From Selenomonas sp. AB3002 (GTDB lineage: Bacteria; Bacillota; Negativicutes; Selenomonadales; Selenomonadaceae), in assembly GCF_000702545.1 (NCBI RefSeq), contig NZ_JNIO01000002.1, positions 124,001 through 188,000 on the forward strand: 64,000 bases of DNA, written 5' to 3'. Position 1 is the stretch's first letter. Every line of letters begins with the position of its first letter. The notes below the pieces were generated by a model, which saw only the letters and a program-made list of their open reading frames with translations, was not told the DNA's origin and did no database searches. The position numbers and the translations under genes were made by a program. Positions 45,587-54,963 of the stretch are shown in pieces.

Positions 45587-46372
45587 TTACCCCAGCGCCA
45601 CATCCAGCGCCATCATCAGCGTAAATCCAAGGGCAAAGGCCAGCACCCCTACATTGGAATGGTGGCCTGAGGACATCTCAGGAATAAGTTCTTCCACCAC
45701 CACATAGAGCATGGCCCCTGCCGCAAAGGCCAGCAGATACGGAAGCACCGGGATTACAAAGCTGGCCGCCAGGATAGTCAGCAGCCCTCCTATAGGCTCC
45801 ACCACACCTGAGAGCATGCCCCCCAGGAAAGCCTTATGGCGGCTCATGCCCGCTGCCCTCAAAGGCAGGGAGATGATGGCCCCCTCGGGAAAGTTCTGTA
45901 TGGCAATACCCACAGACAGCGCCAAAGCTCCTCCCAGGGTAACATCGGCAGTCCCTGAGATCCACCCTGCCAGCACCACGCCTACCGCCATGCCTTCAGG
46001 GATATTGTGCAGAGTCACCGCCAGCACCAGCATGGCAGATTTTGGCAGCGAGCAGCTGGGGCCCTCTGCCTCCTCCGAGTCCAGATGCAGATGGGGAATG
46101 AAATGGTCAAGGGCCAGCAAGAAAAGCGTCCCTGCCCAAAAGCCAATCACCGCAGGAAGGAAAGCCAGCTGCCCCAGCTGCCCCGAAGCCTCCATGGAGG
46201 GAATCAAAAGACTCCAGACAGAAGCCGCCACCATGACCCCCGCGGCAAAGCCCATAAGCCCCTTTTGCACCAGAGGATTGAGCTCATCCTTCAGCACATA
46301 CACCCCTGCCGCCCCCAAGGCAGTGCCCATAAAAGGCAGCAGCAACCCCTGCAATACTTCCAAAGATAACAT
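45587..46372 (-). CDS. ZIP family metal transporter
   Basis: 261 aa, eight membrane helices. The metal site is evident in HNIPEGMAVGVVLAG (TM4, H-N-x-P-E-G) and QNFPEGAIISLPL (TM5), and a His-rich loop HFIPHLHLDSEEAEG lies between TM3 and TM4. Imports Zn2+ or other divalent metals (ZupT-like). ATG 46372 with GGAGG five bases upstream. A TTG four codons earlier is the alternative. Confidence 0.9.
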   Translation of the reverse strand: MLSLEVLQGLLLPFMGTALGAAGVYVLKDELNPLVQKGLMGFAAGVMVAASVWSLLIPSMEASGQLGQLAFLPAVIGFWAGTLFLLALDHFIPHLHLDSEEAEGPSCSLPKSAMLVLAVTLHNIPEGMAVGVVLAGWISGTADVTLGGALALSVGIAIQNFPEGAIISLPLRAAGMSRHKAFLGGMLSGVVEPIGGLLTILAASFVIPVLPYLLAFAAGAMLYVVVEELIPEMSSGHHSNVGVLAFALGFTLMMALDVALG

Positions 46373-46529
46373 AAATGCCTCCAAAATCAGATGTCAGAGA
46401 TAATTTCCTCATTACTATTTCCTCCCCGCAGGAGAAAAATCCTCCCTCCCCCTTAACCTTTGCCACCCAAATAACGATATAATGATATGGAGAAACGGAC
46501 TTCTATGGCATCCAAAGGAGGAATGGGCC

Positions 46530-49512: not shown

Positions 49513-49558
49513 GGGCTGCTGCATAAGTGAAACTCTCACTCATGCAGCAGCCCATTTT
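49513..49558. terminator. Terminator between the deacetylase and the metal-resistance block
   Basis: GGGCTGCTGCAT-A-AGTGA ... TCACT-C-ATGCAGCAGCCC (49513-49553), T-tail on +. Separates convergent genes. Confidence 0.8.
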
Positions 49559-49580: not shown

Positions 49581-49799
49581 TCAGATATACACTTCGCAGT
49601 CGTCTTCCACGCGCTTGCAGTTGCTGCGGACATTTTCCATGACAGCCTGAACGTCCTGGCCCTCTTCAAATTCCACCTTCATCTTCAGTCCCATGAAATT
49701 GACCGTTGCATCTTTGACACCTGGCGTCTTCTTAGCAGCCTCCTCCATCAGATTCGCGCAGGCGGCACAGTCAACCTCGATTTTGTAAACCTTCTTCAT
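49581..49799 (-). CDS. Heavy-metal-associated (HMA) domain protein, 72 aa
   Basis: Complete ferredoxin-like HMA fold. The loop is KIEVDCAACANLMEEAA, i.e. D-C-x-x-C, which is the CadA/ZntA-type variant, not the copper-type GMTCxxC. Probably a Zn/Cd-binding metallochaperone or a detached N-terminal domain of the P-ATPase upstream. That ATPase lacks its own HMA domain. A 16-bp palindrome 22 bases before its ATG suggests control by an SmtB/ArsR-type repressor. Confidence 0.85.
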   Translation of the reverse strand: MKKVYKIEVDCAACANLMEEAAKKTPGVKDATVNFMGLKMKVEFEEGQDVQAVMENVRSNCKRVEDDCEVYI

Positions 49800-49820
49800 A
49801 CAGGCACATCCTTTCTATAT

Positions 49821-49836
49821 ATGAATGTTTATTCAT
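49821..49836. promoter_or_regulatory. SmtB/ArsR-like operator before the HMA gene
   Basis: ATGAAT-GTTT-ATTCAT, perfect 6-bp arms. Resembles the TGAA...TTCA operators of SmtB/CzrA/CadC sensors (family knowledge). A sister site lies before the P-ATPase. Confidence 0.6.
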
Positions 49837-49897
49837 TAGATAATCTAAGTATTGCTCCTCTTGCAGGGCAAACAATTTTCCCTGCTTATGAAATCCT

Positions 49898-51832
49898 TCA
49901 GGCTGCAGCCACATCTGAAAGGCTGCGGCTGTTTTCATTTGCCTGCAGGACAGACTTGGGGACAAACATGGCCCGCACAGCGTTCAGAACAGCCAGGACC
50001 ATGACCCCCACATCGGCGAAGATAGCCGCCCACATATTGGCAAAGCCTATAGCCCCCAGCATCAGCACCAGCACCTTGACCCCGATGGAGAACCAGATAT
50101 TCTGCCTGACAATCCGCAGGGTCTTGCGGGCAATGCGCTGGGCAACGGAAATCTTGAGAGGATCGTCATCCATCAGCACCACATCGGCGGCTTCAATGGC
50201 CGCATCGGAGCCCAGAGCCCCCATGGCTATGCCCACATCGGCACGGGCAAGCACCGGGGCATCGTTGATGCCATCCCCTACAAAGGCCAGCTTGCCGGTC
50301 TTTTTCTGCTGCAACAGCTCTTCCACCCTGGCTACCTTGTCCTGGGGCAGCAGCTGGCTGTATACCTCATCCAGCTGCAGATCCGCCGCCACCTTGTCAG
50401 CTGACTTGCAATTATCACCAGTGAGCATGACCGTCTTTTTGATGCCATTGCGCTTGAGAGCGCGGATAGCCTCATGGGCATGTTCCTTCACCACATCGGC
50501 AATGATGATATGGCCGGCGTATTCGCCCTCTACCGCCACATGGATCATGGTGCCAGCTTCATCGCATTCATGCCACCTGGCACCAAGGGATTCCATCATC
50601 CTGGCATTGCCCACGCAGACGGTCTTGCCGTTGACCCGGGCACGGATGCCCTGACCGGCGATTTCCTCCACCTCTTCCACCTGGCAGCCATCAGCCTCAT
50701 GGCCAAAGGCATTGCGCAGAGATTCGGCAATGGGGTGAGTAGAATAGCGCTCCACATGAGCAGCCAGGTGCAGCAGCTCCTCCCGGTTCAATTTGTCCGT
50801 ATGAATGGCATTGACCTGGAAAACTCCTTTGGTCAGGGTACCAGTCTTGTCAAAGACCACCGTATCCACCTCTGCCAGGGTTTCCAGATAATTGGAGCCC
50901 TTTACCAGCACTCCCTGACGGCTGGCGCCGCCAAGGCCGGCAAAGAAGCTGAGGGGAATGCTGACCACCAGGGCACAGGGACAACTGATAACCAGGAAGG
51001 TAAGGGCGCGGTAAATCCAGGTACCCCACTCGGGAGCCAGCCCCATGCCCCAAAGACGTACCAGGGGCGGCAAAAAGGCCAGCGCCAGAGCAGCATATAC
51101 CACGATGGGGGTATAAACCCGGGCAAACTTGCTGATGAAGTCCTCCGATTTGGACTTCCTGGAACTGGCGTCTTCCACCATCTCCAAAATCCTGGAGGCC
51201 GTTGACTCGTCAAATTCCTTGGTGGTCCTGATTTTCAGCAAGCCATTGATATTGACGCAGCCGCTGAGGACCTCATCTCCTGCCCCGGCTTCCCGGGGCA
51301 GGGCTTCACCGGTCAGGGCTACCGTATTCAGGCTGGAAGTGCCCTCCACCACCACACCGTCCAGGGGAATCTTTTCGCCGGGCTTGACCACAATGATGCT
51401 GCCAATCTCCACCTCATAGGGATCCACCTGCTCAAGGGAGCCATCTGCCTGCTGCAGATTCGCATAGTCCGGACGGATATCCATCAGCTCGCTGATATCC
51501 CGGCGGCTGCGGCCCACGGCATAGGCCTGGAACCACTCACCCACCTGATAGAACAGCATGACGGCAATGGCTTCAGTATAATCCCCGTCCTCATAAACAG
51601 CCAGAGCCATGGCGCCCAGGGTGGCAATGGCCATGAGCAGGCTTTCATCAAAAGCCCGCCGGTTCCTGAGGCCCTTGCCAGCCTTGTACAGGATATCATA
51701 ACCAATGATGAAATAAGGCACCAAGTAGGCCAGGAAGCGGGGAAGCCCCGCCAGCGGCGCATAGGCCAGGGCAATCATCAGGACAGCAGCCACGATAATC
51801 CGCACAAGATTTTTCTTCTGCTTCTGATTCAT
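49898..51832 (-). CDS. Zn/Cd-type heavy-metal P1B-ATPase without HMA domain
   Basis: 644 aa. Two leading helices, then EVEIGSIIVVKPGEKIPLDGVVVEG (actuator), SCPCALVVSIPLSFFAGLGGASRQGVLVKG with the metal-site CPC, phosphorylation DKTGTLTKGVFQ, and [24 protein letters not shown]. The CPCALVVS context points to the ZntA/CadA (Zn, Cd, Pb) subgroup rather than CopA, where CPCALGLA is usual. Exports metal across the inner membrane. Start ATG 51832 with GGAGG seven bases upstream; an ATG two codons earlier overlaps that site. Its HMA partner is the separate 72-aa gene 98 bases downstream. Confidence 0.92.
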   Translation of the reverse strand: MNQKQKKNLVRIIVAAVLMIALAYAPLAGLPRFLAYLVPYFIIGYDILYKAGKGLRNRRAFDESLLMAIATLGAMALAVYEDGDYTEAIAVMLFYQVGEWFQAYAVGRSRRDISELMDIRPDYANLQQADGSLEQVDPYEVEIGSIIVVKPGEKIPLDGVVVEGTSSLNTVALTGEALPREAGAGDEVLSGCVNINGLLKIRTTKEFDESTASRILEMVEDASSRKSKSEDFISKFARVYTPIVVYAALALAFLPPLVRLWGMGLAPEWGTWIYRALTFLVISCPCALVVSIPLSFFAGLGGASRQGVLVKGSNYLETLAEVDTVVFDKTGTLTKGVFQVNAIHTDKLNREELLHLAAHVERYSTHPIAESLRNAFGHEADGCQVEEVEEIAGQGIRARVNGKTVCVGNARMMESLGARWHECDEAGTMIHVAVEGEYAGHIIIADVVKEHAHEAIRALKRNGIKKTVMLTGDNCKSADKVAADLQLDEVYSQLLPQDKVARVEELLQQKKTGKLAFVGDGINDAPVLARADVGIAMGALGSDAAIEAADVVLMDDDPLKISVAQRIARKTLRIVRQNIWFSIGVKVLVLMLGAIGFANMWAAIFADVGVMVLAVLNAVRAMFVPKSVLQANENSRSLSDVAAA

Positions 51833-51865
51833 AGACATTCCTCCCCAGGCTAAACATTATTATAT

Positions 51866-51881
51866 ATGAACAATTATTCAT
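51866..51881. promoter_or_regulatory. SmtB/ArsR-like operator before the Zn/Cd ATPase
   Basis: ATGAAC-AATT-ATTCAT, matching the TGAACA...TATTCA form I remember for cyanobacterial SmtB sites. Located 34 bases upstream of the ATPase start, so binding would block its transcription. Confidence 0.6.
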
Positions 51882-51978
51882 TCGTTGAATGTATTATACC
51901 ACTTCCTGACCCTGAGAACAATAACCAGCAAAAAAATAGCCCGTCTGGAATAAAAATAAACCAGACGGACCATTTCAC

Positions 51979-54543
51979 TTAGTCCACCAATTCGTAGCCT
52001 GCCTCGGTGATGACCTGGGCGAACTCCTCCCGGGCAATCTCCCGTTCAGCTGTCACCTTGGCCGTACCGGCTTCCAGGTTCACCTCCACAGCGGTAACTC
52101 CCGCCATCCCGGCCAGCGCATCATTTACATGCTTCTGACAATGGGCGCACATCATGCCTTCAATCTTAAGTTCCTTTTCCATAGTCTTTTCCTCTTCCTT
52201 TCTGTCATTTGCTGTTTCTTCAATTTTATCCTGATGAACTGCCGTCACTGCTGCCCCCTGCTCCGGCTTGAAATACCGCAGCCTCAGCGCGTTCATGACC
52301 ACGCAGACACTGGACATGCTCATGGCTGCCGCCCCAATCATGGGGGAAAGCTTGATGCCAAAGGCAGGATACAGAAGCCCTGCAGCCAGTGGAATGCCGA
52401 TGATATTGTAGATGAAAGCCCAAAACAAGTTTTCCTTGATATTGCGAATCACTGCCTGGGACAGCCTGATGGCACTCACTGCATCCAGCAGATTGCTGCG
52501 CATCAGTACCGCATCGGCACTCTCCATGGCCACATCCGTGCCGGCGCCAATGGCAATACCCAAGTCAGCCCGGGCCAGGGCCGGCGCATCATTGATGCCA
52601 TCGCCAATCATGGCCACCTTATGACCCTCTGCCTGCAGCTTTGCAATATGCTGCTCCTTGTGGGCCGGCAGTACCCCGGCAATGAATTTCCTGAGGCCCA
52701 GCCGCTGGCTGACAGCTTTCGCTGTGCGTTCATTATCGCCGGTGAGCATGATGACCTCCAGCCCCATAGCCGTGAATTTGCGGATAGCCTCGATGCTGGA
52801 AGCCTTTTCCCTGTCCGCCACCGCCATGAGGCCCACCAGTTCTCCCCCACAGGCAAAGAACAGCAGGGACTTGCCCTCATCTGCCAACTTTGTCACCAGT
52901 CGGCTATGAGGCGAAATATCTATGCCCTGCTCAGCCATGAAGTCTTCGTTGCCAGCCAGGCAGGGCTTGCCCTGCACCTGCCCTTTCAGACCCCGTCCAA
53001 TGACGGCCTGGAAGTCCTGCACTGCTGCCGGGGAAATCTTCTTGCTCCCGGCATAGGCCAGCACGGCTTCAGCCAGCGGGTGCTCGCTTTTCTGTTCCAG
53101 GCCTGCCGCCAGAGCCAAAAATTCCGTCTCCTCCATGGCGAAGACTGCCACATCTGTCACAGCAGGCTTGCCCTCAGTGATGGTGCCGGTCTTATCCATG
53201 ACCACCGTATCCACGGCCCGGGCAATTTCCAAAGCTTCCCCGGACTTGATCAGTATGCCGTTTTCCGCCCCCTTGCCCGTGCCCACCATGATGGCCACAG
53301 GCGTTGCCAGTCCCAGCGCACAGGGACAAGAGATGACCAGAATGGATATAGCGATGGAAAAGGCAAATTCCACGCTCTCTCCCAGTGCCAGCCACGCGCC
53401 CCCTGCCGCCAGGGCAATGAGAATCACCACTGGCACGAACACCCCGGCAATGCGGTCAGCCAGCCTGGCCATGGGAGCCTTGCTGGCGCTGGCTTCATCC
53501 ACCAGCCGGATGATCTGGCTGATGGTGGTATCGCTGCCCACCTTCTGGGCACGGAAATGTATCGCCCCCGCCTTGTTCAGCGTGGCAGAGGTCACCATAT
53601 CCCCGGCCTGCTTGAAGACTGGCAGGCTTTCACCGGTCAGGGCCGACTCGTCCACGCTGGTCTGACCCTCAAGCACCACGCCATCGGCGGGTATCCTCTC
53701 CCCTGGCCGCACGATAATCTCGTCCCCTGCCACCAGCTCCTCAACGGGCAGCAGGACTTCCCTGCCCCCTCGCAACACAGCAGCCTGCTTCGGAGCCAGT
53801 TCCATTAGCCTGGCCAGGGCAGCACCTGTTTTGCCCTTGGCCCTGGCCTCAAGATACTTGCCCACGGTAATCAGCGTGACAATCATGCCCGCCGACTCAA
53901 AGTAGAGATTGCGGCTGTATTCCGTCACCAGGGCCCAGTCCCCATGCCCCAGCCCCCATCCTATGCGGAACAGAGCGAAGGCACCAAAAACGGCTGCCGC
54001 CATGGAACCCATAGCCACCAGGCTGTCCATATTGGGAGCCCCCTGAAGTAGGTTCCTGAAACCATTGATATAGTATTTGCGATTTAGGTACATGATGGGC
54101 AGCAGCAGCAGGAATTGGGCCAAGGAAAAGGTCAGGGCATTCTCTGCGCCGTCAAACAGCTCCCGCACCAGCGCCGGCACCGGCAGTCCCAGCCAGGCCA
54201 ACAGCATCTGATGCATGGCAATATACATGATGGGAAAGAGAAACAGCACCGACCAAAGCAGACGCTTTTTCATGTCTGCCGCTTCTTTTTCCAGCGGCGC
54301 CGCCTCTTCCTTTTGGGAAACAGACTCCTGCCCCTTCAGGCTGGCGCCGTAACCGGCCTTTTCCACTGCGGCAATGATTGTCCCTGCGTCCAATTTCCCT
54401 TCATCATAAGACAGCTGCATGGAGTTGGTCAGCAGGTTCACGCTCACCCCCTCTGTGCCCTCCAGTTTCGCCACAGCCTTTTCCACCCGTGCCGAACAGG
54501 CTGAACAGGTCATGCCGGTTATGGTGAATCGTTCTTTTTTCAT
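51979..54543 (-). CDS. copA: Copper-exporting P1B-ATPase with HMA domains at both ends
   Basis: 854 aa. N-terminal HMA ([15 protein letters not shown], residues about 9-23), eight helices, [59 protein letters not shown]. After the last helix pair comes a hydrophilic linker and then a complete second HMA domain from about residue 790 ([20 protein letters not shown]). In most bacteria this C-terminal part is a separate CopZ chaperone, so it looks like a CopA-CopZ fusion. Cu+ export across the inner membrane. Seven bases after csoR. Probably regulated by CsoR. Confidence 0.93.
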
Positions 54544-54550
54544 CAGCCCC

Positions 54551-54874
54551 TCACCTCATCATCTTGCCCAGCAGCATCACCAGTTCATCCACCACCGCCT
54601 CGTCGCCATCACGGATATCGTGGACCACGCAGCTCTTGATATGCTGGGACAGCAGTTCCTTGTTGAAAGCCCCCAGGGCCGCTTGTATGGCGCTGACCTG
54701 GGTCATGATATCCACGCAATAGCGATCCTCTTCCACCATGCGGCGGATGCCCCGCACCTGTCCTTCAATGCGGTTGAGACGGGAGATCAGCCCTTTGTAT
54801 TCCCCGCCCTCCTTGTCACGATACTTGTGCCTTACCTCGGCACAGCCACAGCATCCTTCATGCGCTTGCTCCAT
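54551..54874 (-). CDS. csoR: CsoR/DUF156 family copper-sensing repressor
   Basis: 107 aa from ATG 54874 ([16 protein letters not shown] five bases upstream); the longer open frame has no such site. All-helical DUF156. The Cu ligands C-H-C fit the [17 protein letters not shown] Cys, the H of LLSQHIKSC and the following C. The N-terminal GCCGCAE is an additional Cys-rich stretch. Represses the copper exporter until Cu+ binds. First gene of csoR-copA. Confidence 0.92.
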
Positions 54875-54900
54875 AACAGCCTCCCTGATAGTGTCCAAAA

Positions 54901-54943
54901 TATACCCCTTATAGGTATATAGATTATACCCATGAGGGGTATA
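54901..54943 (-). promoter_or_regulatory. Tandem CsoR-like operators
   Basis: Two palindromes with identical arms TATACC-N7-GGTATA at 54901-54919 and 54925-54943, 24 bases centre to centre, just before csoR. The TACC(C)...GGTA layout is what CsoR tetramers bind in other Firmicutes and actinobacteria. Confidence 0.7.
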
Positions 54944-54963
54944 TGTCAAGCACTTGCTTCCAA

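Follow-up and report, generated by a model that had tools for sequence, protein, structure and literature searches.

A probable zinc/cadmium efflux module of Selenomonas with a free HMA protein, twin operators and a distant ArsR-type candidate sensor

The 64-kb window analysed here (the whole stretch of Selenomonas sp. AB3002 DNA at C2:124001-188000) probably encodes a zinc/cadmium efflux module, in which twin operators answer to one distant ArsR-type regulator, ArsR1, and a free HMA protein serves the pump. The source is a rumen-type bacterium; judged by HMA identity (up to 90%), its closest named relatives are strains of Selenomonas ruminantium. All parts of the locus are of known kinds; what sets it apart is the free HMA partner of a zinc pump, apparently unstudied in the literature searched, together with the series of fusions and the displaced regulator. 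The genes, their domains, the operators, the co-distribution and the ArsR1 pairing are established at the level of sequence. The features are as follows.

49513-49553, strand not assigned: terminator-like hairpin 3′ of the HMA gene, 19 pairs (in the whole scan, such sites are no commoner than in shuffles)
49581-49799, minus strand: free 72-aa HMA protein (PF00403), DCAAC site plus C61 and C68
49821-49836, strand not assigned: operator 2, same class as operator 1, between the ATPase and HMA genes and 5′ of the HMA gene, ATGAATGTTTATTCAT, score 0.94 with a hand-set matrix
49898-51838, minus strand: 646-aa P1B-type ATPase for Zn/Cd/Pb export, without an HMA domain; CPC in TM6, FADVG in TM8
51866-51881, strand not assigned: operator 1, core of a 12-2-12 repeat 5′ of the ATPase gene, ATGAACAATTATTCAT, score 0.98 with a hand-set matrix
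51893-51898, minus strand: -10-like TATAAT, 10 nt upstream of the 18-mer of operator 1
51979-54543, minus strand: copA, 854 aa, two HMA domains, with a hairpin-like site at the gene end (51964-51988)
54551-54949: CsoR-type repressor gene

On the minus strand the ATPase gene is followed, after a gap of 98 bp, by the HMA gene, and copA and the CsoR-type repressor gene lie upstream. The original prediction of an ATPase without an HMA domain and a separate 72-aa DCAAC-type HMA gene agrees with the open reading frames, strands, coordinates and domains. A profile search found the E1-E2_ATPase and hydrolase domains in the ATPase and no PF00403. The protein passes TIGR01512 (501.6 bits, cut-off 313.5), falls below the copper-type model TIGR01511 (396.4, cut-off 397) and stays below the ZntA equivalog cut-offs (463.5 and 424.1 versus 1005 and 1240). 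Its closest solved structure is the zinc ATPase 4umv (E 1.2e-101), with the CPC and the TM8 Asp segment (FADVG) aligned. The family score, the CPC in TM6 and the Asp in TM8 classify it as a P1B-2 ATPase of the Zn/Cd/Pb type (ZntA/CadA), and it would presumably transport zinc or cadmium. An N-terminal HMA domain is usual, though not universal, in P1B-2 ATPases; here it is missing, and the HMA is a separate protein. A broken gene that had lost its HMA domain was considered and ruled out, since relatives are equally long without HMA and C-terminal fusions exist.

The 72-aa protein matches PF00403 at 33.4 bits (cut-off 24.8) and is one of three HMA matches in the genome, the other two being in CopA. 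It is predicted to fold as beta-alpha-beta-beta-alpha (mean pLDDT 78.3, with low confidence for residues 67-72 and the last strand), and the predicted fold matches HMA structures including CopZ (6ff2). It has the PF00403 domain, the CxxC and, by prediction, the ferredoxin-like fold of CopZ/MerP-like metallochaperones, and it scores under the NCBIfam CopZ cut-offs (22.9, 21.3 and 19.5 bits versus 95, 85 and 91). The metal-site motif is DCAAC in the free protein, and MTCSAC and MMCAHC in the adjacent CopA. All 30 sequences hand-chosen from 87 family loci have the DCxxC cysteines, C61 and C68. Across the whole set the C-terminal pair is less constant: it is missing in genus g8, G011, G026, G030 and others, and G093 lacks C68. 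CopA has an HMA domain at both ends; the C-terminal one recalls the relatives in which the zinc-type ATPase carries a C-terminal HMA fusion. A ZIP-family metal transporter gene (ZupT-like; 45587-46384, minus strand) lies ~3 kb from the efflux pair.

The HMA gene and a zinc-type ATPase gene share one fetched locus in 83 of the 87 cases, and the other four have no ATPase in the fetched stretch. Of these 83 loci, 55 have HMA ahead of the ATPase and nine behind it; in the rest the two are joined, with HMA at the ATPase C-terminus in 18 and at the N-terminus in one. Kept contig-search HMA matches are 75-90% identical, many of them from Lachnospiraceae and other Clostridia. By these sequences HMA is normally a separate protein in Selenomonadaceae and many Clostridia, so that describing the pair as an oddly 'split' exporter was misleading. 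The fusions suggest that the HMA protein hands metal to its ATPase. In the literature searched, no published work on a free HMA protein of a zinc/cadmium-type pump was found.

Each of the two genes is preceded by a TGAAYN4RTTCA palindrome, the two operators differing in their centres. The predicted near-identical palindrome per gene was recovered: the only exact ATGAAYN4RTTCAT matches in the window are 49821-49836 and 51866-51881, each 5′ of one gene. When two mismatches are allowed, the window has 11 matches, which is no more than chance. In the whole 3.67-Mb genome the exact motif occurs at three places, two of them at this locus, versus none for the reversed control; the looser TGAAN6TTCA is uninformative genome-wide (67 places versus 42 in the control). 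Two further sites were rejected as regulon members: the third palindrome (C2:364174) starts with the initiation codon of a gene for an EamA-family transporter and looks like chance, and a site with one mismatch (C8:1388424) falls within a 643-aa ORF without an evident metal link. The flanks of the two operators have a common 37-nt repeat, 76% identical. The 52 family sites give AACAAATGAAYA-RT-TRTTCATATRTT as their extended consensus, an imperfect 12-2-12 repeat near the promoter, and the sequences support one class of SmtB/CzrA-type 12-2-12 operators (op1). A TATAAT-like hexamer (5 of 6) is found 8-22 nt upstream of the 18-mer at 38 of the 52 family sites versus 110 of 2610 random places, and the operator therefore probably covers the transcription start. 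For the HMA gene of the window, the -10 judged by eye (AATACT, 4 of 6) is weak, a point against the explanation proposed below. The matrix weights and the thresholds (0.85; 0.94) were set by hand after the data had been seen; among random 300-bp windows of the same family loci, 68 of 3480 pass for op1 and 22 of 3480 for the ArsR2-type operator (op2) described below. The hairpin scan found no terminator-like site in the 98-bp gap, so that transcriptional read-through from the ATPase into the HMA gene is possible; the neighbouring copA is probably a separate transcription unit.

As predicted, the window contains no ArsR/SmtB gene: a PF01022 scan gave ten matches in the genome, none of them within C2:124001-188000. 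The best match, ArsR1 (C2:285779-286156), lies ~110 kb from the efflux pair. ArsR1 contains both CxCD and D-x-H...H-x-x-E/H, and the frames of the other nine ArsR-type matches contain neither motif; we take D-x-H...H-x-x-E/H to be the alpha5 ligands and CxC the alpha3N ligands of ArsR/SmtB metal sensors. ArsR1 passes NF033788 (103.5 bits, cut-off 55), and its closest solved structure is SmtB (1r1t; E 3.2e-25, alpha5 segment aligned). These features make ArsR1, as a candidate repressor, the most likely sensor for both operators. The original suggestion that a distant sensor coordinates both genes thus appears likely, with one operator class and a named candidate.

The proposed genome scan for other palindromes gave the three places described above; as to an ArsR-family gene preceded by one, ArsR1 has no operator before itself within the family and is operator-preceded in most loci read outside it. 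No site before ArsR1 reaches 0.85 in any of 39 Selenomonadaceae loci (best 0.77), which counts against the pairing. Ten ArsR1 loci outside the family were available as class-level matches with locus sequence. In eight of them ArsR1 stands directly before a ZntA-type ATPase, and all eight (two from one genus) have a palindrome 33-40 nt before the ArsR1 start, with a score of at least 0.89; the remaining two precede NlpC and have no palindrome. This apparent autoregulation of ArsR1 outside Selenomonadaceae, in other families of the class, supports the link between ArsR1 and the operator. In the source genome ArsR1 is preceded by murQ, a PTS gene and mupG, which point to peptidoglycan recycling, and an NlpC/P60 gene comes after it. 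NlpC follows ArsR1 in each of the 12 longer family loci that were read; murQ-PTS-mupG lie upstream completely in six of these, in part in four and not at all in two. The NlpC/P60 gene may be the other or the main partner of ArsR1, which counts against the pairing with the pump. As a side observation, this peptidoglycan hydrolase gene also follows ArsR1 outside the family (L065 and L067), a link between metal sensor and cell wall; the ArsR1-NlpC coordinates are C2:285779-287037 (L012:5780-7037), with others in L112-L118 and L216-L219.

The association of operator and ArsR1 was examined in the 85 readable loci of the 87 fetched, G060 and G132 being too close to a contig end. ArsR1 was scored as present at about 59% identity or more, a limit set by hand after the data had been seen (in G132 the match is in two pieces). 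op1 and ArsR1 occur together in 50 loci, op1 without ArsR1 in one, ArsR1 without op1 in three, and neither in 31 (Fisher p 1.2e-18, kinship ignored). By genus, ArsR1 is present in all 13 genera with op1 in the read locus (in g1, in 5 of 6 genomes) and absent in 9 of the 12 genera without it. The one genome with the operator and no ArsR1 match (G001; 380 contigs, 8% contamination) stands as an exception and counts against the association. As to the three opposite mismatches, G028 was scored without op1 through a misassigned start site, a perfect op1 preceding its N-terminally fused ORF; G015 runs off its contig; and G013 has a site at 0.79.

The 31 loci with neither op1 nor ArsR1 comprise 13 with a local ArsR2 (12 of them with the ArsR2-type operator), two with that operator alone (G034 and G113) and 16 with nothing. 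The last group, from genera g12, g18 and g28, counts against the proposed explanation. In genus g12, 13 HMA-gene loci (L089, L194-L205) lack the operator, ArsR1 and a local ArsR2, and control there is lost or different. Another 14 family genomes have ArsR1 and the ATPase without an HMA match, and an exact op1 precedes the ATPase in only five of them (G069, G073, G087, G088 and G091; between 75 and about 360 nt ahead of the match), which also counts against the association. An exact-match search found none before the ATPase in G009, G019, G074, G089, G090, G127, G133 and G134; G007 has one exact op1 site in the genome, its position not listed. Three sites of genus g6 pass both operator thresholds, with ArsR1 in all three, a further point against the explanation.

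ArsR2 is a different, local ArsR paired with a different operator, ATTAARYRNNYRYTTAAT. Among the best 80 of 451 contig-search loci, a sample therefore biased to close relatives (roughly twelve belong to the family, and some were already in the family set), an ArsR1-like gene is found in 21 and an ArsR2-like gene in 29. The order operator-HMA-ATPase-ArsR1 occurs in 12 of the 21 ArsR1-like loci and operator-ArsR1-HMA-ATPase in four; two have the operator before HMA with ArsR1 ~2.3 kb off, and three have no operator. ATTAARYRNNYRYTTAAT is carried by 28 of the 29 ArsR2-like loci, and no cross-combination of regulator and operator occurs among these best 80. ArsR2 with this operator stands in place of ArsR1 and its operator in L084, L095-L097, L103, L180, L181 and L184-L188; L102 and L189 go with these, and G034 and G113 have the ArsR2-type operator without a local ArsR2. 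Genus g21 contains both pairings: in G069, ArsR1 goes with an exact op1 (C32:1647) before the ATPase (C32:1921), and eight sister genomes have ArsR2 and its operator; by sequence, this genus shows non-orthologous regulators swapped together with their operators.

Absence of the palindromes from close relatives with the same genes had been named as the contrary outcome; the operator is present at the gene pair in all five other genomes of the genus, imperfectly in G002 (0.92) and G005 (0.85 and 0.87), and G005 alone has one before each gene. When a site within 100 bp of each gene with a score of at least 0.8 is required, an operator before each gene is found in 5 of the 87 loci, 64 of which have separate genes in one locus (G000, G005, G115, G117 and G122). 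Twin operators occur in both gene orders, the order in G005 being reversed. An AraC-type gene on the opposite strand lies between HMA and ATPase in G115, as does a biotin-synthase-like radical-SAM gene in G117 and G122, which are near-identical here and therefore not independent cases. Since HMA is its own transcription unit in these three genomes, operator 2 is more than a chance repeat; the stand-alone units do not show that the genes answer to separate signals. Most op1-bearing relatives have just one operator, for both genes or for a fusion.

We propose that the locus is a zinc/cadmium efflux module whose P1B-2 ATPase would have its cytosolic metal-binding domain as a separate soluble HMA protein, each gene having its own promoter, with a 12-2-12 operator located on or close to the transcription start. 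A single trans-acting repressor, ArsR1, would bind both operators in metal-poor cells; once Zn(II) or Cd(II) fills its site, it would leave the operators, and pump and HMA protein would be made together. The HMA protein would capture metal and deliver it to the pump or regulate the pump, like the fused C-terminal domain in relatives. ArsR1 binding, the identity of the metal, induction and the role of the HMA protein are what we infer from the arrangement. Because both sites belong to one operator class, separate promoters under shared control are the better reading of the twin operators and appear to fit best, possibly with differing strength or threshold. The originally suggested independent induction of the small protein finds no support, as both sites fit a single operator class and nothing points to a second regulator. 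It is unlikely that the second operator gives a different output, with an HMA promoter of other affinity or threshold that induces the protein, as buffer or chaperone, before or without the pump. The different centres and scores (0.98 and 0.94), the five loci in which HMA has its own operator and the three in which an unrelated opposite-strand gene parts it from the ATPase would fit such an arrangement, but the operator class is the same, there is no second regulator, most op1-bearing relatives have a single operator, and G117 and G122 are not independent.

We regard as very unlikely that a regulator other than ArsR1, such as the nearby CsoR-type repressor, uses the palindromes. G001, with its operator and no ArsR1 match, would agree with such a regulator; however, op1 is found at the gene pair in relatives without a CsoR or copA match in the fetched locus (G001, G003, G004 and G020, among others), ArsR1 orthologues elsewhere have op1 on their own promoter, and the genome's other nine ArsR-type matches lack the metal motifs. 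The HMA protein could also be a metal buffer or copper chaperone co-regulated by happenstance rather than a pump partner, which we consider improbable. Most of the solved structures closest to it in sequence and fold are copper HMA domains, and copA adjoins in the window and in G002, whereas the fusion to the C-terminus of the zinc-type ATPase (18 of 87 loci), the shared locus in 83 of 87, a DCAAC site unlike those of the adjacent CopA and the presumed co-regulation with the zinc-type ATPase argue for the partnership.

Soluble chaperones for export ATPases are well known for copper, and to our knowledge no comparable HMA-fold chaperone of zinc efflux is established. The natural series of free, C-terminally fused and separately controlled HMA offers a way to test the role of the HMA domain for a zinc pump, and the locus presents an ArsR regulator that has apparently moved out of the operon while retaining its targets, and an exchange of non-orthologous regulators along with their operators. 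A conceivable but doubtful extension is that the 72-aa protein represents an undescribed family, widespread in gut Bacillota, of soluble metallochaperones dedicated to Zn/Cd efflux, in which a detachable HMA (free or as a C-terminal fusion) with a second conserved Cys pair, C61/C68, loads or gates an HMA-less pump, its dose set by a private operator in some lineages.

CopZ-CopA copper systems have a free HMA-fold chaperone beside a P1B ATPase; unlike them, this locus combines a zinc/cadmium-type ATPase lacking its own HMA with a DCxxC site and a C-terminal Cys pair. One report describes 12-2-12 repeats for the cyanobacterial SmtB/ZiaR/AztR/AzuR operators, one listed Anabaena site being TGAACA-GA-TGTTCA, and an azuR gene remote from its target nmtA (PMC8790569). 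The repeat with a TGAACA-N2-TGTTCA core and the remote regulator gene are common to both loci, whereas the AzuR target is a metallothionein and the targets here are an ATPase and an HMA protein with one site each. Bacillus subtilis CzrA is one ArsR-type zinc sensor over two efflux genes, cadA and czcD (PMC5189952). Its described targets are two transporters, compared with a transporter and its free HMA protein here. The B. subtilis czrA gene is reportedly unlinked to its targets. Mycobacterial CtpC-PacL1 is a P1B zinc exporter with an adjacently encoded small metal-binding partner (PMC9374683), a separate partner beside the exporter gene being common to both loci. PacL1 is a membrane protein without a ferredoxin-like fold and CtpC keeps its N-terminal metal-binding domain, unlike here. 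In Thermus, TtSmtB-TTC0354 are adjacent SmtB-type and ATPase genes with dedicated promoters (PMC5658604); the TTC0354 ATPase has an HMA motif and an arsenic response there, and the dedicated promoters are a feature in common with this locus.
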